21,449 nucleotides of DNA from a virus: positions 1-21,449 of the IMG/VR virus record IMGVR_UViG_3300008120_001034; one strand, written 5' to 3'. Shown here piece by piece: positions 4,343 through 18,097 of the stretch. Both the position numbers and the translations under genes were made by a program. The first letter of the stretch is position 1. Every line of letters starts with the position of its first letter. Under the pieces are notes generated by a model that ran no database searches, was not told where the DNA came from, and saw only the letters and a list, made by a program, of their open reading frames with translations.

Positions 4343-7300
4343 CTACCTCAGCGCTTGAATTGGCACCCCAAAATACAAAGGGGCCAAAACCTCTTCATCT
4401 AAAAACACTTTCTGACCCGTGTCTTCAAGCAATTTCTTAATGGTAGGAGGCATGCTGTTTGGACGTAGATTATTCAACAAATCAACTATCTGCGGTGCAT
4501 AATTTTCAGGAGTGGCATTAGCGGTCAACGGACCGTTGCCGGTGAGCTGTGCAATGGTGTTTTTCTTTGCGTCAGGGACACCGGGCTTGGCGGTCAAATA
4601 CTCCACCGTGACGTGGGGCACATTGTTATTGTCGTACAGCGAGTACACCTCAGCCTCGCCACTGTCCAACGCCGCACGGCCCTTTTTCAGGCTGCCGTAG
4701 GTGGTGGACTTGGCATAACCTGCCACCGAGTTGTTCATGCCTGCGGCAATTGCGCGAACGCCGTCCGGCTTGACTACCTTAACCCATCGAAAGTCATCTC
4801 CTGCGGGCAGGAAGTCTTTAACGCCAAAGGTCATGATGTCTGCGGGCGGGACCTTTCCTGCTTCAATAGCCTTCTTAACCAGCGGGATTGATTTCTCAAA
4901 CCGGTCCACCTGCTGGGTGTTCGCATACGCTTTCTTAAGAAAGTCCGGAAAGCCCATTTGATTGAGCTCATCAGGGTCCATTTGTTCTGCTTGACGCAGC
5001 ATCTGGGTGGGGCCCAAGCCTAGCATGCGCACGTAATCTGAGCGGATGTCTTGGATAGGCTGTCCCTTGTCAATCGCTACCTGCATCTCCGGCAAGAAAT
5101 ATCCGGCATCAACGGCCTCGCCATAGTCGGGCTGGCGTCCACCTGGCGTCACCATGGCTTCTACAGCCGGGGAGCCGTACAGGCTGGGATAGCGCGCCAT
5201 GTCGGAGTCTGAGACGTTGCGGCTGTTGACGAACAATGTTTCCGCGATCCGTGGTTCAAGGACCGTGGAGAACAGCGTCGGATTGTCCTTGATCTTCTGG
5301 CGTATCTGGGCAGCGACATCGGCCACGCCTGTTGGGCCTTGACCAGGCTTCCTACCGGCGTAAGCCAGTAGTTGGGCGTCAGGGATTTTGTCCAGGTTGG
5401 CCTGTATGTTGGCCATGATCTGGGACTGCATGACTCCCTCAACCTCGTCAGTACCCACGCGTCGGGGGACAGTGGACTGCATGCCTAGCATCTCGTCATA
5501 CGCTTTCTCAAGCAGGCGTAAGGATTCCAAGTCACCCTGCGCCACGCCCTTTTGCAGAGCTTGCGGGAAGGTATCCCCCATAGGCGTGCTTCGCTCAAAC
5601 TTCAACGCACCAGACAAAATGTCTTTGCGCAACGGGTCGTCAACACTGCCGGCCTGCTTGGTGAAGAAGTCCTTGGCCTTTTGGTTGAACAACATGGTCA
5701 ACGCCTGACGCTTTTCAGGATCGTCAATGTTGCGGATTTCTTTGAGGATCGGGTCAAACGCCTTGTCCAGGTTGGACAAGATGCCGCCTTCTGTGCTGCG
5801 CGATGTTGGGAAGTAGCCGCCTGGTGCACGGGAAACGTACGACGCGCCAGGCACGTTTAGCTGGCGGTTGTACTCTTGGAAGTCCTTGGCCACGTCAGCG
5901 GCCTTGTCGCCCACGGCCTTGGCTGCCTTGACACCTGCACGCACAGGCGCTGCAGGGTTCACGGCGCTCGAGCCGATCTCAGCCAGATTGAACAAGGCGC
6001 GAGCTGCTGTGCCTTCCTTGGGCGGCTCCTGGCGGATGCCTGCCCTGGTAGCGCGGCGCTTTAAGTCCTCCGAGCCCAGCATCGGCGCTTCCACGTTGTA
6101 GCCAAGCGGGCGCATGGCCATGGTGAGCAAATCAACCGGCGCGCCCAAGAGGTTATATGGGGTCTCAGAAATGCCCTGCAGTGCAGCCGCTTCCAGCTCG
6201 CCCGCCTTTGTAGAAGACTTGCGGCCGATGCCGGACTTGGGCGTTACAAAGGCTGGACGGCTTGCGGCGTCACGCTCTGCTTGCGAGACCTCGCCCTCCT
6301 CAGGCGAGCCCTTGGCGCGGTATTCGGGTTCCTGAGCCTGCTCGTTTTGCGCTTCCAGCTCCACCAGCAGTCGGCGCGCAGACGGGTCACGTACCGTCTT
6401 GCCCAGGTACTCCTTCAAGTTGGCCCGTTTTTTCTCGGGGCTTGGTACGGCTGTTGGGAATGGGGCCTTGCCCACATTCTCACCAATTGCCGATGCGTTT
6501 TTCATCCGCTCCGCAAAATCATCGGGCAGCTGGCCAGAGCCGAGGTACTTCGCCCGTTCCCTTTCCGTCAATGTCCTAAACGCCGCATCCCGACGAGCAT
6601 TTTCCAAATCCGTGAACCTCTTCGGCGCACGGCTAGCCAAGAAACGGTCAAGTCCTGCGCGCGCTGCGCCCACAGCACTTTTAACCAAAGGTGCAGCAAT
6701 CATCTCCGGGTACGAACCTTCAAGGCCCTGCTCGCGTTCAAGCTGAGCCCTGTAAGCAGGGCTGGACATGTCGCCCTTTTCCAGCACGCTGACAAATCCG
6801 CCCTTGGCAAAGCTGCGCTTGCTCAAGCTCTTCTTGACAAGGGTCTGGCCTTCAAGGGTAGGCGCGCCGAAGGTATCAGCTCCCAGGCCACGGGCCTTGT
6901 TCCGCGCTGCGTTGATCTTGAGCTGGTACACGCGGGCAAGCTCTTCCATCTGCTCACGGGCAGTGCCCATGCTCTTGGTCTCAGCTGCCTCTTGCGCGCT
7001 TGGCGGAGCGAAGGCCATGCCCTTAGATGCCGCCAAAGAAGGCATCTTGAGCGACATGTTCTTGTCGGTCTTCGACTCACCGCCCGAGCCCCGTGAAGTG
7101 CGCTTGACGGGGCGGCGCATTGGCTCGACCTGGTTGGCTTGTGTAACGTCAGCCAGGAGCTTTTGTGCATTGTCAAAAAGGGCTGCGCTCGAGTCCTGGT
7201 CCCCGCTCATCTGCTGCTGCAGGTACTCGTTAATCGAGTCGCTGTTCATGACCTCTCCGCCGTCCTTGAAGAACGCAGGCATGGCCGGGGCCGCGACTAC

Positions 7301-9808
7301 GTTGCCAAGGCGATCGGTGCGAGTGCCAAGGACGTCTGAGAGCTGTGCATTCTGGCCTGCGATCCGAGAGGTCAGCTGACCTCTTCTGATTTCGTCCTCT
7401 GTGGGCAGCGTCGCGCCAGCGACCACATTGCCCATGCGGTCGGTCGTCGTGCCAAAAGCGCCTGACAGCTTCTTGTAGCTGCCCAAGGTGTGAGGGTCCA
7501 AGCCTCCACTTCTTCTCATGCTCCCTTGAGGCGCAGGCTGGATGAGTCCGGAAGGTCCGCGCATATCAGGTGGGTTGATCCAAGACATCTCGCGCCTGAG
7601 CACCTCGTCTTCAAAGGCGTTCGGGCCTGAGGACAAGGTGAATGGTGCGGGGGCCACGGACCCTGGTGGGGGCGACGTGGGCATCGCAGGCGTCGGCTGC
7701 TTTGGCAGCATGACTGTAGGGGCGAACGGTGGCGGCGTCACTGGAAGCCGAATTGGAATGTTGGTGACGTCCGTAGGTGGCGTTGGCGTGACAACAGGTG
7801 GTGTCGCGATTGGCGGCGTCACCACAGGTGGAACGACCGGTGGTGTCACAACGGGTGGAACAACGGGCGGTGTCACCACTGGCGGGACGACCGGAGGAAC
7901 GGGTGGTGGGGGAGGCGATACCGGCGGCGTCACGGGTGGCGTCACCACAGGTGGAACGACCGGTGGAGGCGTTACAACTGGAGGCGTCACCACAGGTGGA
8001 ACGACCGGTGGAGGCGTTACAACTGGAGGTGCCATGTCCGCATTCACCTGACCAGGAAGAGTAGCTCCAGGGGTCGTGGCATTTACCTGACCAGGAAGAG
8101 TAGCTCCAGGGGTCGTGGCATTTACCTGACCGGGAAGAGTAGCTCCAGGGGTCGTGGCATTCACCTGACCGGGAAGAGTAGCTCCAGGGGTCGTGGCATT
8201 CACCTGACCGGGAAGAGTAGCTCCAGGGGTTAAAGCTGCAAGATCACTTGCGGCTGATCCGCTAAGGGCAGGAAAGCCGTCACCACTGCCTAGAGCTGGG
8301 AAACCACCACCACTGCCGATTGCAGGGAAACTGCTGTCACCGCCAAAACCAGCTTCGGCATCCGCACGTGCGTTATCCGCAGCATCTTGTCGGTCAAGTT
8401 CTGCAAAATCTTCTGCCGCTGACGCGCCGCCAGATGCGGAAGAGCCGCTACCGCCGAGTGCGGGGAAACCATCGCCACTACCAAGTGCAGGGAATCCATC
8501 CCCTCCGCCGAGTGCGGGAGAGCCGCCACCAAGAGCGGTTAAGTCATCTCGTGCTGATCCGCTACCTCCAAGACCGTCATTGCCTAAACCGCCATCGCCC
8601 AGACCGCCGCCAAGACCGTCATTGCCTAAACCGCCGCCGAGACCGTCATTGCCCAAACCACCATCTCCAAAACCGGCTTCGGCATCTGCACGTGCATTGT
8701 CCGCAGCGTCTTGTCGGTCAAGGCTTGCCAGGTCGTCTCTGGCGGATGTGTCACCAAGCCCTGAGTCGCCTACGGGGTTGTTGCTATTTGCGTTGGCGAT
8801 AGTGTCTTGGATGTAGGCGTCAAGGTCGCTTCTGAAAGCGTCCGCGTTAAAGGTTGGACGCGCAGGTGTCGGCAGGTTTGCCATCATCTGGTCAAACCGT
8901 GACATCGGAGCAGGGGCAGAGCTGTACAAAGGTGGGTTTGGCCTGAACGTACTGCGATTCGTCGCAGGAGTAAAGGTCGACCTGGAGCTGGTCGTTGTTC
9001 CACGCATCACAGGGGCAGACGTTGTTCTTGAGGAAGTGAACACTGAAGGGGCAGGTGTGTTCCCCCTCATCACAGTGGTAGATGTGGCCCTTGGGGAGCG
9101 AGCGGCCGAAGTAGATGTCACGCCTCTCATCACAGGGGCAGACGTCGACCTTGGGGCGCTAAACACTGAAGGGGCAGACGTGTTTCCACGCATCACAGGG
9201 GCAGACGTCGACCTTGGGGCGCTGACGGCCGAAGTAGGCGTTGTGCCTCTCATCACTGGAGCGGAGGTCGACCTCGGAGCGCTGAAGACCGAAGGGGCAG
9301 GTGTGTTCCCCCTCATCACAGTGGTAGAGGTGGCTCTTGGGGCACTGACGGCCGAAGTAGGCGTTGTGCCTCTCATCACAGGGGCAGACGTTGTCCTTGG
9401 GGCACTAAAGACTGAAGGGGCAGACGTGTTTCCACGCATCACTGGAGCGGATGTCGACCTTGGAGTGCTGATGGCCGTGGTAGGCGTTGTCCCACGCATC
9501 ACAGGAGCGGAGGTTGTTCTTGAAGCTGGGGCCGGCGTAGTTCGAGCTGGTTTAAGACTGTCTCGATGCGCCTGCTGCCGAGCGTTGAAATCGTTTCTCC
9601 ATGCCTGCTGCCGGGCATTGAAGTCATCTGTCTGTTTTTGCCGGAACGCTGCTGCAGCTCTTTCGCGAGCAGCGGCATCGGCCCTTGTCTTAGCCTGCTG
9701 CTCCTGGAAAGCACGCACCCCAGCGTTGTTCTTCAACATGTTGTCCCGGGTCTTCTGAGAAATCCCTGGGGCGTTCATCTCGGCTGCTGAATAGATTCTC
9801 TGGGCCAT
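4343..9808 (-). CDS. Giant repeat-rich probable virion protein (1821 aa)
   Basis: The largest gene in the window. Residues 1-95 are a charged helical region with a short repeat (DFNARQQA occurs twice). Residues 98-270 hold nine VMRG-ended repeats. Residues 360-500 hold Gly-rich GGLGNDGLG and GDGFPALG repeats with a duplicated RQDAADNARADAEAGFG block. Residues 527-591 hold five TPGATLPGQVNAT repeats, and residues 592-676 are PPVVTPPVV low-complexity. The C-terminal two thirds (677-1821) is ordinary globular or helical sequence with FKDGGEV and FAKGG motifs. Near the end it carries a YSLYDNNNVPHVTVEYL segment that resembles 'LRDPDGKPHVTIE' strings in very large phage polyvalent proteins and PcfJ-like proteins; that link is from memory and weak. 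The ATG at 9808 has AGGAA five bases upstream and is preferred over a TTG at 9823. Its place between terL and portal suggests an internal or ejected virion protein. The function is unproven. Confidence 0.75.
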   Translation of the reverse strand: MAQRIYSAAEMNAPGISQKTRDNMLKNNAGVRAFQEQQAKTRADAAARERAAAAFRQKQTDDFNARQQAWRNDFNARQQAHRDSLKPARTTPAPASRTTSAPVMRGTTPTTAISTPRSTSAPVMRGNTSAPSVFSAPRTTSAPVMRGTTPTSAVSAPRATSTTVMRGNTPAPSVFSAPRSTSAPVMRGTTPTSAVSAPRSTSAPVMRGNTSAPSVFSAPRSTSAPVMRGVTSTSAARSPRATSTTVMRGNTPAPSVFTSSRTTSAPVMRGTTTSSRSTFTPATNRSTFRPNPPLYSSAPAPMSRFDQMMANLPTPARPTFNADAFRSDLDAYIQDTIANANSNNPVGDSGLGDTSARDDLASLDRQDAADNARADAEAGFGDGGLGNDGLGGGLGNDGLGGGLGDGGLGNDGLGGSGSARDDLTALGGGSPALGGGDGFPALGSGDGFPALGGSGSSASGGASAAEDFAELDRQDAADNARADAEAGFGGDSSFPAIGSGGGFPALGSGDGFPALSGSAASDLAALTPGATLPGQVNATTPGATLPGQVNATTPGATLPGQVNATTPGATLPGQVNATTPGATLPGQVNADMAPPVVTPPPVVPPVVTPPVVTPPPVVPPVVTPPVTPPVSPPPPPVPPVVPPVVTPPVVPPVVTPPVVPPVVTPPIATPPVVTPTPPTDVTNIPIRLPVTPPPFAPTVMLPKQPTPAMPTSPPPGSVAPAPFTLSSGPNAFEDEVLRREMSWINPPDMRGPSGLIQPAPQGSMRRSGGLDPHTLGSYKKLSGAFGTTTDRMGNVVAGATLPTEDEIRRGQLTSRIAGQNAQLSDVLGTRTDRLGNVVAAPAMPAFFKDGGEVMNSDSINEYLQQQMSGDQDSSAALFDNAQKLLADVTQANQVEPMRRPVKRTSRGSGGESKTDKNMSLKMPSLAASKGMAFAPPSAQEAAETKSMGTAREQMEELARVYQLKINAARNKARGLGADTFGAPTLEGQTLVKKSLSKRSFAKGGFVSVLEKGDMSSPAYRAQLEREQGLEGSYPEMIAAPLVKSAVGAARAGLDRFLASRAPKRFTDLENARRDAAFRTLTERERAKYLGSGQLPDDFAERMKNASAIGENVGKAPFPTAVPSPEKKRANLKEYLGKTVRDPSARRLLVELEAQNEQAQEPEYRAKGSPEEGEVSQAERDAASRPAFVTPKSGIGRKSSTKAGELEAAALQGISETPYNLLGAPVDLLTMAMRPLGYNVEAPMLGSEDLKRRATRAGIRQEPPKEGTAARALFNLAEIGSSAVNPAAPVRAGVKAAKAVGDKAADVAKDFQEYNRQLNVPGASYVSRAPGGYFPTSRSTEGGILSNLDKAFDPILKEIRNIDDPEKRQALTMLFNQKAKDFFTKQAGSVDDPLRKDILSGALKFERSTPMGDTFPQALQKGVAQGDLESLRLLEKAYDEMLGMQSTVPRRVGTDEVEGVMQSQIMANIQANLDKIPDAQLLAYAGRKPGQGPTGVADVAAQIRQKIKDNPTLFSTVLEPRIAETLFVNSRNVSDSDMARYPSLYGSPAVEAMVTPGGRQPDYGEAVDAGYFLPEMQVAIDKGQPIQDIRSDYVRMLGLGPTQMLRQAEQMDPDELNQMGFPDFLKKAYANTQQVDRFEKSIPLVKKAIEAGKVPPADIMTFGVKDFLPAGDDFRWVKVVKPDGVRAIAAGMNNSVAGYAKSTTYGSLKKGRAALDSGEAEVYSLYDNNNVPHVTVEYLTAKPGVPDAKKNTIAQLTGNGPLTANATPENYAPQIVDLLNNLRPNSMPPTIKKLLEDTGQKVFLDEEVLAPLYFGVPIQALR
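7780..8033 (-). repeat. PPVVTPPVV low-complexity coding repeat
   Basis: Inside the giant gene. The minus strand encodes repeated PPVVTPPVV and PPVVPPVVT units (roughly residues 592-676), with the matching DNA repeating GGAACGACCGGTGG and CACCACAGGTGG on the plus strand. It probably forms an extended polyproline linker between the repeat-rich N-terminal third and the globular remainder. Confidence 0.85.
8036..8230 (-). repeat. Five near-identical 39-bp tandem repeats (TPGATLPGQVNAT)
   Basis: Five in-frame copies of a 39-bp unit inside the giant gene, each encoding 13 residues. Copies differ only at a few positions, such as ATTCACC/ATTTACC and CCAGG/CCGGG. That near-identity, compared with the more diverged repeats further upstream in the gene, suggests recent expansion by slippage or recombination. 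Confidence 0.95.
8346..8723 (-). repeat. Gly-rich repeats flanked by a duplicated RQDAADNARADAEAGFG block
   Basis: The stretches at 8346-8398 and 8671-8723 are a roughly 53-bp direct duplication encoding RQDAADNARADAEAGFG. Between them the DNA codes for GLGNDGLGG units (about 8560-8670) and GDGFPALG units (about 8440-8530; more copies follow at 8250-8330). They are coding repeats of the giant protein and should form a flexible Gly-rich linker. Confidence 0.85.
8999..9515 (-). repeat. Nine alternating 20/21-residue VMRG repeats
   Basis: The giant gene encodes nine units ending in VMRG. Two unit types mostly alternate: type A of 20 residues (TTPTSAVSAPRSTSAPVMRG) and type B of 21 residues (beginning NTSAPSVFSAPR and ending VMRG). 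This means that a unit pair of about 123 bp was itself duplicated. The repeats are Ser/Thr/Pro-rich with one Arg-Gly per unit, suggesting an extended, disordered or fibrous segment. Confidence 0.9.
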
Positions 9809-9845
9809 ACCGGTTCCTGCCAATAAGTTGCCTACATTTTACGGC

Positions 9846-11303: not shown

Positions 11304-11632
11304 GATTGTTCCACGTGGAGAGTTTTGTCGTCCGAGTGTAGGGTCAGATGACATTTTCGGCAAAGCCATGTGACTTGGAGCGGTTTGCTGTAGTCGTCAT
11401 GATGCTTTTGGGCAGAAGGGTCCTGGCACACGGCACAGGGTTCAGGAAGAAGTTTTCCCCTGCGCTGGTACACGTTGGCATAAGCACGGGCCACGGACCG
11501 CTGGCGCTGATCATCGGGAAGGTCCGCGTGCCGTGGTCGGTTGTCCCTGGCGTACGCAGCATGGCACGCGCGGCAGTAGCGTTGGGGTAGCCGGTCATTC
11601 GGACCGTGGCACTTGGAGCAGGTTGTTTTCAT
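11300..11632 (-). CDS. HNH-type zinc-binding endonuclease next to terL
   Basis: A 110-residue protein with two Cys clusters. C5-x2-C8 and C20-x2-C23 form an N-terminal zinc knuckle. C66-x2-C69 and C91-x2-C94 frame the nuclease core, which has KHHDDYSKPLQVTWLCRKCH (H77/H78, then H95 and H99). The string HHDDYSKPL...WLCRKCH is a familiar phage HNH / endonuclease VII-like signature. HNH nucleases next to terminases can assist DNA cleavage during packaging. The start at 11632 is chosen because upstream codons run into noncoding DNA; no strong Shine-Dalgarno is visible there. The stop overlaps the terL start as ATGA. It is the first gene of the late operon. A free-standing homing-like role is the alternative. 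Confidence 0.8.
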   Translation of the reverse strand: MKTTCSKCHGPNDRLPQRYCRACHAAYARDNRPRHADLPDDQRQRSVARAYANVYQRRGKLLPEPCAVCQDPSAQKHHDDYSKPLQVTWLCRKCHLTLHSDDKTLHVEQS

Positions 11633-11641
11633 GGAACGAAT

Positions 11642-11752
11642 TGTTTCACGAATACAAAAAAATTGCAAGGCAAATCGGTTTACAGGGGAAGGGGGCCCTT
11701 TTTCCTGCCGGGGGTCAAAAAGTGTTTCACGCAGCACATACCGTGTGAAACA
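11642..11752. promoter_or_regulatory. Candidate operator: three TGTTTCAC/GTGAAACA sites
   Basis: TGTTTCAC at 11723-11730 and GTGAAACA at 11745-11752 form a perfect inverted repeat whose centres are 22 bases apart, about two helical turns. A third copy, TGTTTCAC, is at 11642-11649, ten bases upstream of the HNH start codon on the transcribed side. Spacing and position suggest binding sites for a regulator of the late operon. I could not identify a convincing -35/-10 pair between them. Confidence 0.4.
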
Positions 11753-12234
11753 GGGCTAAAGCCCGCGACGCCCGCGACCCGGCCCGTTTTTTGGGGCCCG
11801 GGGTGGGTGGGTACTCACTTACGCGCCAGGGCGCGCGGACCCTGGACCACGGCCCACGGATCGCGGCCACCGGCCACCAGGTCCACGGCTCGCGGATCGA
11901 TGCCCCTGGATCGCGGACCATGCACCAGGTAACGGCCACCAGGCGGCCCGGCTCGCGGCCACCTGGTCGAGCGGATCGCGGCCACCAGGGCGCGCGTGCT
12001 GCAGCTGGTGCAGCGAAACATAATGCCCGCACCAGGTAGCGCGCCGGATTATCAATAATCGTTAACGGGGCACCAGGTCAACACAAACACAAACACGGCC
12101 ACCGGCACACGGTACGCGCACCACGCACCAGGGAGCGGCCAGGCGCGGACCCTGGGCAGGCCTGGCCACCAGGCGGTGATCGGGGTTTGTGGCCAACATG
12201 CCACCAGGTCCAGGGCGTCCGGTACGGTACCGGG

Positions 12235-12267
12235 CACAAAAAACCCGGCGCGCGGCCGGGTTTGTGG
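12235..12267 (-). terminator. Rho-independent terminator of the DUF932 unit
   Basis: On the minus strand the RNA would form an AAACCCGGC/GCCGGGTTT hairpin with a GC-rich loop, followed by further T residues (TTTTTTG). It lies 20 bases after the stop codon of the 70-residue gene at 12288 and closes that transcription unit before the repetitive intergenic region. Confidence 0.85.
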
Positions 12268-12287
12268 AGAGTTGAAAAACGACCGGG

Positions 12288-12500
12288 TCAGTCGATCCCG
12301 ACCTGGGCGGCGCGATCAGCCAGCAGCCGGTCGGCAGTGGCCATTGCGTCCGCTCGGTCGTCCGTGAAATATTCGGCCAGCAGCTGGTCGTCCTGGTCGA
12401 TCAGCTGCGCACGATATTCTCCGAACTCAGACGACCAGGTGACACGAAACCGACCGACCCCAGGGAAAGCCCCTGCGTAAACCAGGCGGCGCGCGCTCAC
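12288..12500 (-). CDS. Small conserved phage/plasmid protein after the DUF932 gene
   Basis: A 70-residue protein starting with GTG at 12500, whose GTGA overlaps the stop of the DUF932 gene; this coupling fixes the start. The central part RFRVTWSSEFGEYRAQLID...AEYFTDDRADAMATADRLL looks like two beta strands, a turn and a helix. The string 'EFGEYR ... DYFTDDREDA' recurs in small proteins of unknown function from phages and plasmids. It ends shortly before a terminator. It probably works with the DUF932 protein, but nothing in the sequence says how. Confidence 0.75.
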   Translation of the reverse strand: MSARRLVYAGAFPGVGRFRVTWSSEFGEYRAQLIDQDDQLLAEYFTDDRADAMATADRLLADRAAQVGID

Positions 12501-13591
12501 GCTGCCACCTCGACCAGGTCCAACAGGCCACCGGCCAGGGTTTCGAATTCGACCCGGTCCGCTTGCCAGGGGATCGAGCGCGCGTACGCGGTCGCGCCGG
12601 TCACCGCGTCCCAAACGGTCTCGATCGGGCGGCCCTCGTCCAGCATGTGCGCATGCTGCACGCGAGCGGCCACGCGCGGCCCGAACCGGGTCGCCAGGAA
12701 TTTGTCGACCTTTTCGAGTTTTGTGGTTTGCGCGCTGCGCAGGACCCCGGACACATTGGCCGCGCTCGAACGGGAATATTCCAAAAGGGCCGGGGTTACC
12801 TGGTCGATAAACTTATCCGGCGCGCTGGCCGTGTGCCTGATGCTGAACTCGTCCAGCTCATGCGCACCCCACACGATCCGGTTCGCGCAAACATAGTCAA
12901 ACAGGAAAGTCTTAACGCGCAGCGCGCCAGCTCCGACCTCGCTGTTTGTGACGAAAAACCCGCGCGCCAGGGTGCCGGTCTGGCCGTCCCGGCGGCCCGG
13001 TAACTCGATCCGGTTTTGCTCGTCCGCCAGGAAAACAAACATGTCACGGTCACCCGCGAACAATGTAGTGTTTTTACGGTCGACCTCGACCAGGTTACCG
13101 AACACCCCAGGCACCCGCCAGGGGCCGGTCGCACCGTCCCCGAACCGGTCGATTAAGGCGGCCACAACGTCACCGTCCCAAATTCGGCCGTAGTTCGGAC
13201 CGGTCACCGCGCGCAGCTCTGAACAGCCGTTACGGGACAATAAAACCCCGATGTCTTTCGCGTCCCGCTCGACCTGGAACCCGTAGTTCAGACAATCGGC
13301 GGCCAGGGGCGCGGGTAACTCTCGCAGATATGCACCAGGCGCGCCGACCAGGTTAGCGGCCTGGCCCATGGCCCAATGGGTCGGGGCGTACGCATGGCCG
13401 TTGGGTCCCTCAATCACCAGGCCCTGGTTATCGTCAGTTGGAACCGCGCGCAGACGGCGGGACGAAACCACGGCGGCCCGGCTGATCGCCTGGCGGGTCA
13501 CCATGGCCGCATGCATCTCATGCAGGGAAATAAAGCGCTCTTCGGCGGGGCGTGTGGCCCATTGGGCGCTGGCTTGTTTAAGTGTTGACAT
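12497..13591 (-). CDS. DUF932 (phage/plasmid-like) protein
   Basis: A 364-residue protein matching the DUF932 / TIGR03299 phage- and plasmid-borne family. An N-terminal helical part (ERFISLHEMHAAM) is followed by SSRRLRAVPTDDNQGLVIEGPNGHAYAPTHWAMGQ. Next come the typical RAVTGPNYGRIWDGDVVAALI stretch (about 147-167), the strand region LFAGDRDMFVFLADEQNRIELPG, and FFVTNSEVGAGALRVKTFLFDYVCANRIVWG (about 208-240). The C-terminus is helical. Family members are often found on mobile elements; their biochemical role is not established. It has its own promoter and leader (13592-13681) with a purine box instead of a strong Shine-Dalgarno, and is coupled to a 70-residue partner. The surrounding DNA is unusually rich in CCAGG/CCTGG. 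Confidence 0.85.
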   Translation of the reverse strand: MSTLKQASAQWATRPAEERFISLHEMHAAMVTRQAISRAAVVSSRRLRAVPTDDNQGLVIEGPNGHAYAPTHWAMGQAANLVGAPGAYLRELPAPLAADCLNYGFQVERDAKDIGVLLSRNGCSELRAVTGPNYGRIWDGDVVAALIDRFGDGATGPWRVPGVFGNLVEVDRKNTTLFAGDRDMFVFLADEQNRIELPGRRDGQTGTLARGFFVTNSEVGAGALRVKTFLFDYVCANRIVWGAHELDEFSIRHTASAPDKFIDQVTPALLEYSRSSAANVSGVLRSAQTTKLEKVDKFLATRFGPRVAARVQHAHMLDEGRPIETVWDAVTGATAYARSIPWQADRVEFETLAGGLLDLVEVAA

Positions 13592-13681
13592 GGTTTGCTC
13601 TCTTTCTAACTTTCTGAATTACCGGGAAACCGTCCCGGCGGCGGTGTTTGCATTATTACACACAAACAGAAAACAGGTTAA
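13592..13681 (-). promoter_or_regulatory. Promoter and structured leader of the DUF932 gene
   Basis: Minus strand: -35 TTAACC (13676-13681), a 17-base spacer, -10 TAATAA (13653-13658), then CAAACACC. A perfect CCGGGA/TCCCGG hairpin follows at 13622-13638, and the purine box AGAAAGTTAGAAAGAGAG at 13598-13615 lies just before the ATG. The -35 overlaps the stop codon of the upstream gene. It shares elements with the leaders at 14368, 15391, 16098 and 17834. Confidence 0.65.
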
Positions 13682-14367
13682 CGGTCGCGGCCCAGGTCCC
13701 CAACGATATGGTGGCGCAGCAGCGAACCGGGCGGTAGGGATCGAGCGAACCGGACCACGGCGGCCGCATCATCCGGCGCGCCGGTTTTGCGGGTGCTATG
13801 CCAAGCCAGGGCCACAGGGCCGCCGGTCCCGTAACATCCCCCGGCCTGGTCCTGGCCGACCAGGCGCGCGGCCTGGCCATGTGCCACAAACACAACTACA
13901 AAATCACGATCACCGCGCGCACACAATGGGCGGCCGCTCCCACAATCGGCGCAGCTGAAATTATCGGAGAGTTCCGCCGGGCACTGCACAAACCGGACCC
14001 CGGCGGCGGTATATGGCCACACGGTCCCGGCCGGGGCAGCGACCACGGCCGGGCGGCCAATGGCCACGGCGGCCAGGGCCTGGTCGATTGTGTCGCAGCT
14101 GGCATTAATCACGGTCTCGCCAGGTGCCGGGGTCGGCAGGGTTTCGGCGGGAAAATGAGAATAGGCCCAGGCCTGGCCACGTGGCGGCACGGCCTGGCGG
14201 ACGGCCGCCAAATAATCAAGGTCGACCAGGTCCGCGCCCTGGTCGCCTTTTGGGTTCAGCGGGCAGCTCTTCGGGCAGGTGGCCAGAGTTTGATGCTGGC
14301 CTGCGCGGTAGGTGACCGCGATCGGGCCGGTTTTACGGTTTGCGCTAATGCGTACGGTTTTCAACAT
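13678..14367 (-). CDS. Cys-rich conserved phage protein, function unknown
   Basis: A 229-residue protein. The N-terminus reads KTVRISANRKTGPIAVTYRAG, then TCPKSCPL (C31, C35). The middle has VINASCDTIDQALAAVAIGRPAVVAAP (C91). The C-terminal part has VQCPAEL (C129) and CADCGSGRPLCARGDRDFVVVFVAHG (C139, C142, C149). The Cys clusters suggest a zinc or iron-sulfur site. The pattern 'RKTGPI-VTY...TCP-SC...CPA...C-C....LCAR..R..VV.F.AHG' recurs in phage and plasmid proteins loosely like the mycobacteriophage gp88 type; that family link is from memory. It has its own promoter and leader (14368-14456), and its stop codon overlaps the -35 of the DUF932 promoter. No terminator is visible between the two genes, so some read-through is likely. 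Confidence 0.75.
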   Translation of the reverse strand: MLKTVRISANRKTGPIAVTYRAGQHQTLATCPKSCPLNPKGDQGADLVDLDYLAAVRQAVPPRGQAWAYSHFPAETLPTPAPGETVINASCDTIDQALAAVAIGRPAVVAAPAGTVWPYTAAGVRFVQCPAELSDNFSCADCGSGRPLCARGDRDFVVVFVAHGQAARLVGQDQAGGCYGTGGPVALAWHSTRKTGAPDDAAAVVRFARSLPPGSLLRHHIVGDLGRDR

Positions 14368-16172: not shown

Positions 16173-16588
16173 CTGGCCACTAAAAAATTTCTCAACTCAG
16201 CCCAGCTGATCGCTGTCCAGGGCCACCGGGCCATCGCGGGTGTGTCGATGCCTAGGTTGACTAGGTCAATGGCTTGCTCCCCCGCATACAGTAGCAGTTC
16301 GGACTTCTTCGCGTGTGCGGTCCCGGCCGGTTGATACTGCACCAGGATGTAGGTCGGGCAGCGCAGATCGGCATGCTTAATGTGAAATGCCACCTGGTGC
16401 GGTGACAGGTTAACCTTGCGGCCCCGCTTGACCACCTTAAGCTCGACCATGACAAAGTCGCCATGCGGGAATGCCAGTAGGCAATCCGGTATGCCCAGGT
16501 TGACCCTGGACTCAATTCGGGTGAAATGGCAGTTTGGGAGGTTTTCTTTCAGTCGCTTGTACAGGTTCGCTTCTGGTTTCGCTGCCAT
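16169..16588 (-). CDS. VRR-NUC type PD-(D/E)XK nuclease
   Basis: A 139-residue protein with the VRR-NUC nuclease arrangement. E26 lies in RIESRVNLGIPDCLLAF, with D35 in GIPD. VELKVVKRGRKVNLSPHQVAFH holds the E-x-K (E49, K51) and the conserved Gln (Q65). This fold cuts branched or structured DNA, as in Holliday junction resolvase-like enzymes, and phages may use it to clear branches before packaging or in recombination. The start at 16588 has GAGGAAG about seven bases upstream; it lies inside terS, so the two genes overlap by 77 bases in different frames, and no later Met precedes the catalytic part. All catalytic residues are present. Confidence 0.85.
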   Translation of the reverse strand: MAAKPEANLYKRLKENLPNCHFTRIESRVNLGIPDCLLAFPHGDFVMVELKVVKRGRKVNLSPHQVAFHIKHADLRCPTYILVQYQPAGTAHAKKSELLLYAGEQAIDLVNLGIDTPAMARWPWTAISWAELRNFLVAS

Positions 16589-17186
16589 CGCCTTCTTCCT
16601 CGTCTGGTTCTTCCTCGATCTGCTTGGGCGTCACATCCACGATGGGCCCAGCTGAGCCGGCACCGTACAAGCGCTTGATCTCTTCGAGCTTGCGCTGCAC
16701 CTCTTCTTTGCTCATGCTGTCAATGGTGCCGTGTCGGATTTCCTTGCGGTCGATGTAAATCGTGCCTAAGGCTTGGCCACGTCGATATTCAGCCTGGACG
16801 GCTGCACCGTATGCACCGGCCTGCAATGCCTGGTCGCGAATGACCTGCAGGTCTCGCATGTGCCGCTCAAAGGTTGTGCCGTACTTCTCGCCCAACTCGC
16901 GGCGGCGCTCCTGGATGGCAGCAACGATGTGCGGGCAAATCTCCGGATCGGTCAGCTCACGTGCCCGGTTCTTCGCCCAGGCTTCGCTGTACCCGGCACG
17001 CAAAGCAGCTTCCTTCAAGGTGACGTGGCCATCGCCCGCGCAAAACTCTTCGACAAATTTCCATTCCTGGGGCGTCAGCAGTTTGGGCTTGTGGGGCTTG
17101 ACCGGGGCAGTCACACGGGCTTCGACAACAGCAGGCCTTCCACCCAGGCTTTTGCCGGCCAAAAACTTCTCGTCTTTGCCGGCCAT
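16512..17186 (-). CDS. terS: Terminase small subunit
   Basis: A 224-residue DNA-recognition subunit of the packaging complex, resembling the Terminase_2 family. A basic N-terminus (GRPAVVEARVTAPVKPHKPK) leads to LTPQEWKFVEEFC and a helix-turn-helix at about residues 53-75 (HVTLKEAALRAGYSEAWAKNRA), then ELTDPEICPHIVAAIQERRRELGEKYG. Next is a helical oligomerisation region (ERHMRDLQVIRDQALQAGAYGAAVQAEYRRGQALG) and an acidic tail (EEEPDEEEGDG). The ATG at 17186 overlaps the preceding stop as TGATG and has GGAGG eight bases upstream. Its C-terminal 25 codons overlap the nuclease gene. Unusually, terL lies 5 kb downstream. Confidence 0.85.
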   Translation of the reverse strand: MAGKDEKFLAGKSLGGRPAVVEARVTAPVKPHKPKLLTPQEWKFVEEFCAGDGHVTLKEAALRAGYSEAWAKNRARELTDPEICPHIVAAIQERRRELGEKYGTTFERHMRDLQVIRDQALQAGAYGAAVQAEYRRGQALGTIYIDRKEIRHGTIDSMSKEEVQRKLEEIKRLYGAGSAGPIVDVTPKQIEEEPDEEEGDGSETRSEPVQATERKPPKLPFHPN

Positions 17187-17440
17187 CAGGCAACCCTCCA
17201 CAGTCGCCAGCCTTCGCCGTACCGGCGGCAAGTAAACCTGGTGCCAGGATGCCTGCGCGAATACATGTAGGCGGCACTGCGGAGGTTCTTGATCCAGCCT
17301 TTGTCCAGGATCATGAAACTGTCGCCGACGGCCATGTCAGGGAATGGGTAGCGCTCTCGGGGATCGACGCCACCAGGCAGGGGGATGTTCTTTTCGATGT
17401 TCATGCCCACATTGTGCAACAAATCTACAGCCAACGCCAC
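17186..17440 (-). CDS. Small conserved phage protein (DMxVGDSF / RLWRV type)
   Basis: An 84-residue protein whose core MNIEKNIPLPGG...YPFPDMAVGDSFMI and C-terminus RRHPGTRFTCRRYGEGWRLWRVA fit a small family common in phages, with basic residues in the second half and a final 'RVWRV'-like strand. Its function is unknown; DNA binding is plausible from the charge. The start is ambiguous. A GTG at 17440 has an excellent GGAGG six bases upstream, whereas the ATG at 17404, where relatives usually seem to begin, has none. It is the first gene of the terS operon on the left side of the divergent control region. Confidence 0.7.
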   Translation of the reverse strand: MALAVDLLHNVGMNIEKNIPLPGGVDPRERYPFPDMAVGDSFMILDKGWIKNLRSAAYMYSRRHPGTRFTCRRYGEGWRLWRVA

Positions 17441-17467: not shown

Positions 17468-17685
17468 GTTTCCTATAGACTTTTTTAGACCAATGTATGT
17501 TTTTATTTTTTCAAAAAGTCAACCCGCGCGCATTTTATGTGAATTACATCTCTTGACTATGTGTAATTAACCGTGTTCTCATAACTCATTGATTTCATTG
17601 AACTATTACACCATTACATCTATTACACCAAATCTCACAAAAAAAATAAAAAAAACATGATGAGTCAAAAAAAGTCTATACAAAC
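17468..17685. repeat. Long imperfect inverted repeat with outward-facing arms
   Basis: The left arm core TATAGACTTTTTTAGAC (17474-17490) and the right arm core GTCAAAAAAAGTCTATA (17664-17680) are reverse complements with one mismatch. The similarity extends inward through CAT and an A-rich AAAAAATAAAAA block on both sides (left to about 17511, right from about 17641) and outward into AAAC. Read outward, both arms give AAAAAAGTCTATA then NNAAAC, so each could be a promoter or regulator site pointing at the gene it faces. Confidence 0.7.
17543..17629. repeat. ATTACA(C/T)C iterons
   Basis: ATTACATC at 17543-17550, ATTACACC at 17605-17612, ATTACATC at 17613-17620 and ATTACACC at 17622-17629, plus the inverse GTGTAAT at 17561-17567. 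They sit between the inverted-repeat arms. Three of them are nearly contiguous, with 8-9 base spacing. They look like binding sites for a regulator or initiator protein. Confidence 0.5.
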
Positions 17686-17761
17686 CCCAAATCACCGCAA
17701 GGCCCGTGGTCCGCGCACCTTTTACCTAGGGTAAACCCCTATTACAATGCCTCTTGACACA

Positions 17762-17790
17762 TTGACAGTTGACATGTTATAGGGTATAAT
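17762..17790 (+). promoter_or_regulatory. Perfect-consensus sigma70 promoter
   Basis: TTGACA (17762-17767), 17 bases, TATAAT (17785-17790): both hexamers and the spacing match the consensus exactly. Extra TTGACA copies at 17754-17759 and 17769-17774, and one more at 17811-17816, form a direct-repeat cluster. TGTCA (17797-17801 region) and TTGACA (17811-17816) are inverted across the start site. These may be operator sites controlling a very strong early promoter. Confidence 0.85.
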
Positions 17791-17848: not shown

Positions 17849-18097
17849 ATGAGCACACATAATCGTGTCTGGATCGAGCTCGACCCACCCCAGCCTGGCC
17901 ATCCCGAACAGGGCTATGCCCGAGCGGAGGCAGCCACCAGGATGTTGAACAAACTGGGCGTGACCCGTGGTGAGTACTCCGTGGTCTGGTTTGATGAAAG
18001 CAAATGGCGCTATGCCTTTTGCCTGGACTCAGCCGGCACCTTTGTTTTGGCCGATGACCATGGCCAGTGGTTCAATCTTGACAAACTAGCTTCTTGA
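17849..18097 (+). CDS. Lone plus-strand early protein, function unknown
   Basis: An 82-residue protein, the only convincing plus-strand gene. It contains RVWIELDPPQPGHPEQGYARAEAATRMLNKLGV, then GEYSVVWFDESKWRYAFCLDSAGTFVLADDHGQWFNLDKL, suggesting a helix followed by four or five short strands. It has six acidic or aromatic clusters and no membrane segment. I do not recognise a family. The ATG is preceded by AGAAAGTGAGAAAG, the same purine box as in the 13-16 kb units. A perfect promoter 60 bases upstream and a strong terminator just after the stop make it a monocistronic, probably very early and abundant product, such as a host-takeover, anti-defence or regulatory protein (inference). Confidence 0.8.
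   Translation: MSTHNRVWIELDPPQPGHPEQGYARAEAATRMLNKLGVTRGEYSVVWFDESKWRYAFCLDSAGTFVLADDHGQWFNLDKLAS

Follow-up and report, generated by a model that had tools for sequence, protein, structure and literature searches.

What does a GC-rich phage keep in a short AT-rich stretch between genes, when that stretch is bracketed by two arms that mirror each other? The question is raised by the window, i.e., the whole 21,449-base stretch of DNA analysed here, which is a 21.4-kb phage fragment from IMG/VR and a relative of Phage DSL-LC04 (their TerL proteins are 77% identical). According to the comparison with related loci, the arms bound a conserved cis-acting intergenic site of about 250 bp, which has a defined anatomy and a fixed geometry, is present in a single copy in the window, is linked to terS and carries arms that vary together. 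As regards its role, the comparative analysis points to a nucleoprotein site at which these phages most likely initiate packaging (a pac-like site), a reading to which we give about an even chance.

Two mirror-image arms in an AT-rich island

The two arms of the window, with the basis for each in brackets, are the following:

17474 to 17511, minus strand: TerS-proximal arm, with GTCTATA at its core-distal end and an A/T tract at its core-proximal end (top inverted repeat of the window)
17643 to 17680, minus strand: TerS-distal arm (own-arm pairing above all 20,000 permutations among 47 relatives)

As a preliminary description of this locus had stated, TATAGACTTTTTTAGAC matches the reverse complement of GTCAAAAAAAGTCTATA at all but one base, and the similarity does extend further, the inverted repeat growing to 38 nt per arm (17474-17511 and 17643-17680), 74% complementary and with 131 nt in between. 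Equally accurate was its mention of an AT-rich island in a GC-rich genome, inside which the arms sit (GC 0.26-0.34, against ~0.58 for the genome). The pair is the top spaced inverted repeat of the window, with a score of 38 versus 22 for the best at 1,377 other positions. The 13-mer AAAAAAGTCTATA occurs at two places only in the window, which are the arms themselves, two further matches with three mismatches being at chance level; neither a second copy of the element nor the further arm copies that would go with a phage-wide promoter motif were found in the window. Several related IMG/VR contigs stop within or beside the arms, at scattered positions, probably as a result of assembly breaks at repeats and A/T tracts.

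Arms that change together

Relatives were collected by scans with TerS, with two core patterns and with the TerS of DSL-LC04, which gave several hundred related loci, and clustering at 85% identity defined 47 representatives; among GenBank phages, a direct search at the DNA level gave no match. The only match of the core pattern in the genome collection, L305, is a phage-like contig that encodes a DNA polymerase A and a TerS; its binning with a Burkholderiales MAG hints at the host.

The arm sequence is clade-specific and wholly different between clades (TATAGACTTTTTT in the window, TCAAATTTGGCATTTCAATAGGATTATTTACAACTTCATTTACA in the locus L066 and CTATAGGATACACTCTCT in DSL-LC04), with the match within each genome kept. 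Conservation of the arms in close relatives, on which the preliminary description had staked its reading, is therefore found at the level of the pairing, which is kept even where the arm sequence is not. In DSL-LC04 the arm pair is the best inverted repeat genome-wide (50 versus 22). Could such pairs be chance inverted repeats in an AT-rich island, whose A/T tracts raise the apparent similarity? This explanation, rejected by the conservation data, retains hardly any probability: the match to the arm of the same genome far exceeds dinucleotide shuffles (median z of 5.1, versus 0.45 for the direct-orientation control), the arms surpass the rest of the window, and the sum of own-arm scores among the 47 representatives is higher than every one of 20,000 partner permutations, an effect to which relatedness adds.

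A second explanation takes the pairing literally and proposes a DNA hairpin or cruciform, in which the arms would pair in single-stranded or supercoiled DNA for terminal-repeat or concatemer processing, a role like the one proposed for hairpins at T7 concatemer ends. Pairing that is kept through sequence change fits this, as do the arms of L066, identical at 54 of 62 positions, but the loop would measure 110-190 nt and contain the most conserved sequence. Moreover, 12 of 28 loci have arms that score no better than the remainder of the locus, so the pairing is not strictly required, and we regard the hairpin as very unlikely.

Even less probable, with only a slight chance of being right, is a pRNA-like, structured non-coding RNA transcribed from the TerS strand and closed by the arms. 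In its favour, arm mismatches are more often G-T (167) than A-C (92), which leaves a hint of some RNA or strand effect, and the sense strand folds more stably, but composition predicts some of this G-T surplus, the arms pair to a similar degree on both strands when compared with shuffles, Rfam gave no match, and the folding of the core is not above shuffles on either strand (median z of -0.16 and -0.70). The core is conserved as sequence and carries no RNA-structure signal. A consensus fold of the whole alignment returned nothing, because the arms are out of register.

A core of repeats around a predicted IHF site

Read in the TerS direction, the order is GGACCACGG-type motifs, distal arm, GTGTAAT units, IHF consensus, inverted ATTAC unit, direct TGTAATT unit, GC block, proximal arm and TerS operon. 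In the window, the parts other than the arms are these:

17700 to 17719, minus strand: GGACCACGG-type motif, outside the TerS-distal arm (motif count in relatives)
17605 to 17628, minus strand: three direct GTGTAAT-type repeats on the TerS strand, spaced 8-9 bp, TerS-distal of the IHF site (read from the sequence and the position profile)
17582 to 17594, minus strand: predicted IHF consensus WATCAANNNNTTR (AATCAATGAGTTA), near the dyad axis (predicted from sequence)
17561 to 17567, plus strand: inverted GTGTAAT unit, ATTACAC on the TerS strand (at +27 in 28 and at +19 in 13 of 47 relatives)
17542 to 17548, minus strand: further direct unit, TGTAATT on the TerS strand (at +47/+48 in 41 of 47 relatives)
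17532 to 17559, minus strand: possible -35/-10 pair TAGTCA-16-TAAAAT facing TerS (absent in distant relatives)
17524 to 17531, no strand: GC block GCGCGCG, adjoining the TerS-proximal arm at a fixed distance from the IHF site (position profile)

Of 57 distinct TerS-anchored islands, 49 carry the IHF consensus, for which shuffles predict 0.7, versus zero in 69,520 strand-positions of flanking sequence, and its start is 16-20 nt from the dyad axis in every one of the 66 loci whose arms are clear. The position profile of the 47 relatives places GTAA[TG] at -32 (31 relatives), -23 (44) and -15 (46) from this site, and GCGCGC or a variant of it at +63 to +66 in 46 of the 47 representatives. Since none of the 57 TerS-anchored islands has the IHF site in antisense (flipped) orientation, an invertible switch was discarded, a switch having been one of the options in the preliminary description. 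At least one GGNNCRMGG motif was found within 128 nt left of the arm in 40 of 46 relatives, versus none in a downstream control of 8.5 kb. Elsewhere in the window, a GC-rich region at 11740-12280, upstream of the genes for the terminase large subunit and an HNH protein, contains many CACCAGG and GGATCGCGGCCACC-like repeats and several GGNNCRCGG motifs that resemble those outside the distal arm.

Linkage to terS and the neighbouring genes

The genes and the promoter around the element are as follows:

16512 to 17192, minus strand: small terminase subunit TerS, with an SF6/SPP1-like DNA-binding domain (profile against PDB, 6.7e-7 to 4zc3)
17186 to 17404, minus strand: 72-aa ORF from an ATG (85 aa from an upstream TTG), between the element and TerS (ORF list)
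17762 to 17790, plus strand: sigma-70 promoter TTGACA-17-TATAAT of the plus-strand gene, outside the arm and not part of the element (consensus match, 12/12)
17849 to 18097, plus strand: 82-aa accessory gene, phrog_12905, not part of the element (ORF list)

In each of the 111 copies whose downstream sequence exceeds 1.5 kb, TerS follows on the same strand, at a distance of 186-718 nt from the IHF site, and it is directly adjacent in copies that have no intervening ORF; for roughly one relative in five, no counterpart of the 72-aa ORF was found. In the PDB search only SF6-family TerS matched the protein, with no match to TerS of the lambda gpNu1 type, and TerL matches TIGR01630. Two further features of the window may be recorded here: DUF7227 and DUF932 proteins (13678-14367 and 12497-13591) are encoded in the operon between terS and terL, and an ORF of 1826 aa (4343-9823), located between the terminase and portal genes, contains long in-frame tandem repeats with periods of 39, 45, 63, 123 and 246.

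The preliminary description had seen here a divergent control region, each of whose arms pointed at one transcription direction as if one promoter or operator had been duplicated outward. A conserved, intergenic and cis-acting region it is, but the divergent arrangement is not general, since the longest left-hand ORF points away from the element in 58 loci and toward it in 36. Within the window, the genes left of the island do all lie on the minus strand, led by the small ORF and then terS, but on the right there is a single plus-strand gene (82 aa) followed by minus-strand genes from 18134 on, so the island is not the boundary of two large opposed operons. The outward duplication finds no support either: the plus-strand gene has its own 12/12 promoter, 82 bp beyond the arm, which is present in all ten checked relatives that carry the gene (nine perfect, one 11/12), and the element is present in many relatives that have no such gene (in the collection scan, the phrog_12905 gene appeared in only 12 loci).

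Is it TerS that reads the repeat units? Its recognition-helix region varies widely among close relatives, the flanks of that region being conserved, and the GTGTAAT units are constant across TerS proteins with very different recognition helices, so a reading of the units through the HTH is not supported; either TerS does not read them or another protein does. A test with 88 distinct HTH segments revealed no TerS-iteron co-evolution within the lake clades. For SF6, TerS is reported not to read such units.

Lake and marine relatives

Arm-bounded versions are present in DSL-LC04, in the marine phage 023Pt_psg01, and in the cultured Pelagibacter phage HTVC023P and its relatives. In the HTVC023P type, which has been called the ocean's most abundant group of pelagiphages, the arm-bounded island is immediately upstream of TerS; most of the 39 distinct islands have a core of 131-192 nt surrounded by arms of the form TTCCTAGTACACTTCCTTACAAACA, and in 29 islands these arms rank first among the inverted repeats. 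Cultured HTVC023P itself, whose element occupies about 11,622-11,842 of its record, has 27-nt arms, whose score is only a tie for the best in its genome, together with repeats of the sequence ACTAGGAAAA, an IHF-like AATCAATACTTCT and the motif GGACCACG. In 023Pt_psg01, the arms are the best inverted repeat of the genome (39 versus 28) and flank TGGCACA direct, TGTGCCA inverted and TGGCACA direct units plus a GCGCGCG block. Most psg01-type loci showed no clear copy, and a genome-wide search of the cultured relative HTVC027P found no such inverted repeat or site. The homology of the marine versions rests on position and layout, their core sequence not being alignable. In the text searched, the original descriptions of DSL-LC04 and of the HTVC023P type name no inverted repeats or intergenic sites; a description of the site was not found in the papers searched, and its novelty is judged against these papers and the families searched.

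These relatives also bear on a possible control of late transcription, in which the repeats would be bound by an activator or a repressor that, helped by an IHF loop, drives or shuts the operon of the 72-aa ORF and TerS. The element does stand at the head of a long structural operon, the TAGTCA-16-TAAAAT pair faces TerS and ATAAAATGCGCG is retained in many relatives, but distant relatives lack the -10-like box and still have the repeats and the IHF site (TTCTGGGGATCGCGCG, TTTCTAGGGGGGCTCCGCG). Furthermore, one promoter needs no two mirror-image arms, and in 023Pt_psg01 TerS is inverted, i.e., on the opposite strand, yet still about 520 bp from the site, so the linkage is independent of being a promoter for TerS. 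We consider this kind of control decidedly unlikely.

Replication origin or packaging site?

Iterons, an IHF site and AT-rich flanks are well suited to origins of the plasmid type, and the preliminary description had already listed an origin among its options. Iterons would be bound by a phage initiator, IHF would bend the DNA, the AT-rich arms would melt or extrude, and the neighbourhood of terS would reflect only a gene order conserved at the early/late boundary. The layout of iterons, IHF site and AT-rich DNA, the single copy of the element and the repeat units unlinked to TerS specificity all agree with it. The GC-skew check that had been suggested gave a divided answer: in 023Pt_psg01 there is an extremum at the element, the detrended GC-skew maximum falling inside it (13,657), but neither DSL-LC04 nor the GC skew of HTVC023P has an extremum that coincides with the element. 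Against an origin there are also the replication genes, which lie kilobases away, and a linkage to terS that is complete in the copies examined; in DSL-LC04, no annotated initiator adjoins the element. An origin, the main rival, appears unlikely to us, although with a sizeable share of the probability; it must be kept in mind that an origin or a late-operon control site would account for most of the facts cited for packaging.

A packaging-initiation site is favoured because of the TerS linkage in 111 of 111 copies, a unit order like that of lambda cosB and the SF6-like TerS. Its weak point is the constancy of the repeat units across differing recognition helices, and the results on HTVC027P and on most psg01-type loci also speak against it. 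In the mechanism we propose, host IHF would bind near the centre and fold the DNA back upon itself, so that the direct and inverted units and the mirror-image, A/T-rich arms would be brought side by side. On the folded site, TerS may then assemble into a phage protein complex, either by itself or together with a second protein, and position the large terminase for the first cut, whose place may be in the conserved GC block or close to it.

The contigs bear on the kind of end that such packaging would leave. Five of them, of 60.8-62.8 kb, pass through the site and have their ends scattered elsewhere, so a fixed cohesive end looks unlikely, with the qualification that concatemer reads could mask ends. 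A fixed cos end is also disfavoured by the contig ends near the arms, which are scattered, not at one base. The long contigs, together with the circular record of DSL-LC04, are what permuted or circular maps, not a fixed end, would give, and the contig ends are compatible with headful, circularly permuted packaging that would begin at the site.

Comparison with known sites

The closest layout is that of lambda cosB (R3-I1-R2-R1), where IHF folds R3 against R2 for TerS docking (PMC4669245, PMC4856287). Like the island, it is situated beside the TerS gene, with direct, IHF, inverted and direct units in the same order and orientation, and A-tract DNA is adjacent in both, I2 in lambda (PMC4669245, PMC4856287). 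Unlike lambda cosB/cosN, the island has two co-varying inverted arms of 40-60 nt that bracket the core, units of 7-9 bp that vary independently of TerS specificity and a TerS that is SF6/SPP1-like, and it shows no sign of fixed cohesive ends.

As for headful systems of the SPP1/SF6 type, in SPP1, a relative of the pac phage SF6, the pac site overlaps the beginning of terS and contains direct repeats (PMC4737164). In common with the island, the SPP1/SF6 pac (pacL-pacC-pacR) goes with an SF6-like TerS DNA-binding domain and has repeats just upstream of terS and paired flanks around a centre (PMC4737164, PMC4856287). In contrast, the consulted parts mention no IHF site in SPP1 pac, and pacL and pacR are unlike each other, whereas the arms of the island are mirror images.

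The island also shares two-sided repeats, a predicted IHF site and TerS adjacency with the pac of phage P1, from which it differs in its repeats. P1 pac has repeat groups on both sides, involves IHF and lies beside the TerS gene, its repeats being Dam hexamers; it is not known to have long arms that co-vary. Iteron plasmid origins such as R6K gamma and pSC101 combine direct iterons, an IHF site, AT-rich DNA and inverted units, but the island has no nearby initiator gene, is linked to terS and has mirror arms on both sides.

Meaning for packaging in these phages

How pac phages recognise their own DNA has been described as unclear and controversial, with TerS-pac binding that is weak and mostly non-specific in vitro (PMC9611059). 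A conserved site with fixed geometry, whose arms keep matching while they change, offers a comparative handle on pac DNA recognition. We further propose, tentatively and with clearly less than even confidence, that it may represent a new class of viral cis-acting site, in which co-evolving mirror arms bracket an IHF-centred repeat core and a synapse, formed as the bend brings the arms together, would start packaging (or couple replication to packaging). If that is true, such a site would be common to the lake phages and to phages of the HTVC023P type.
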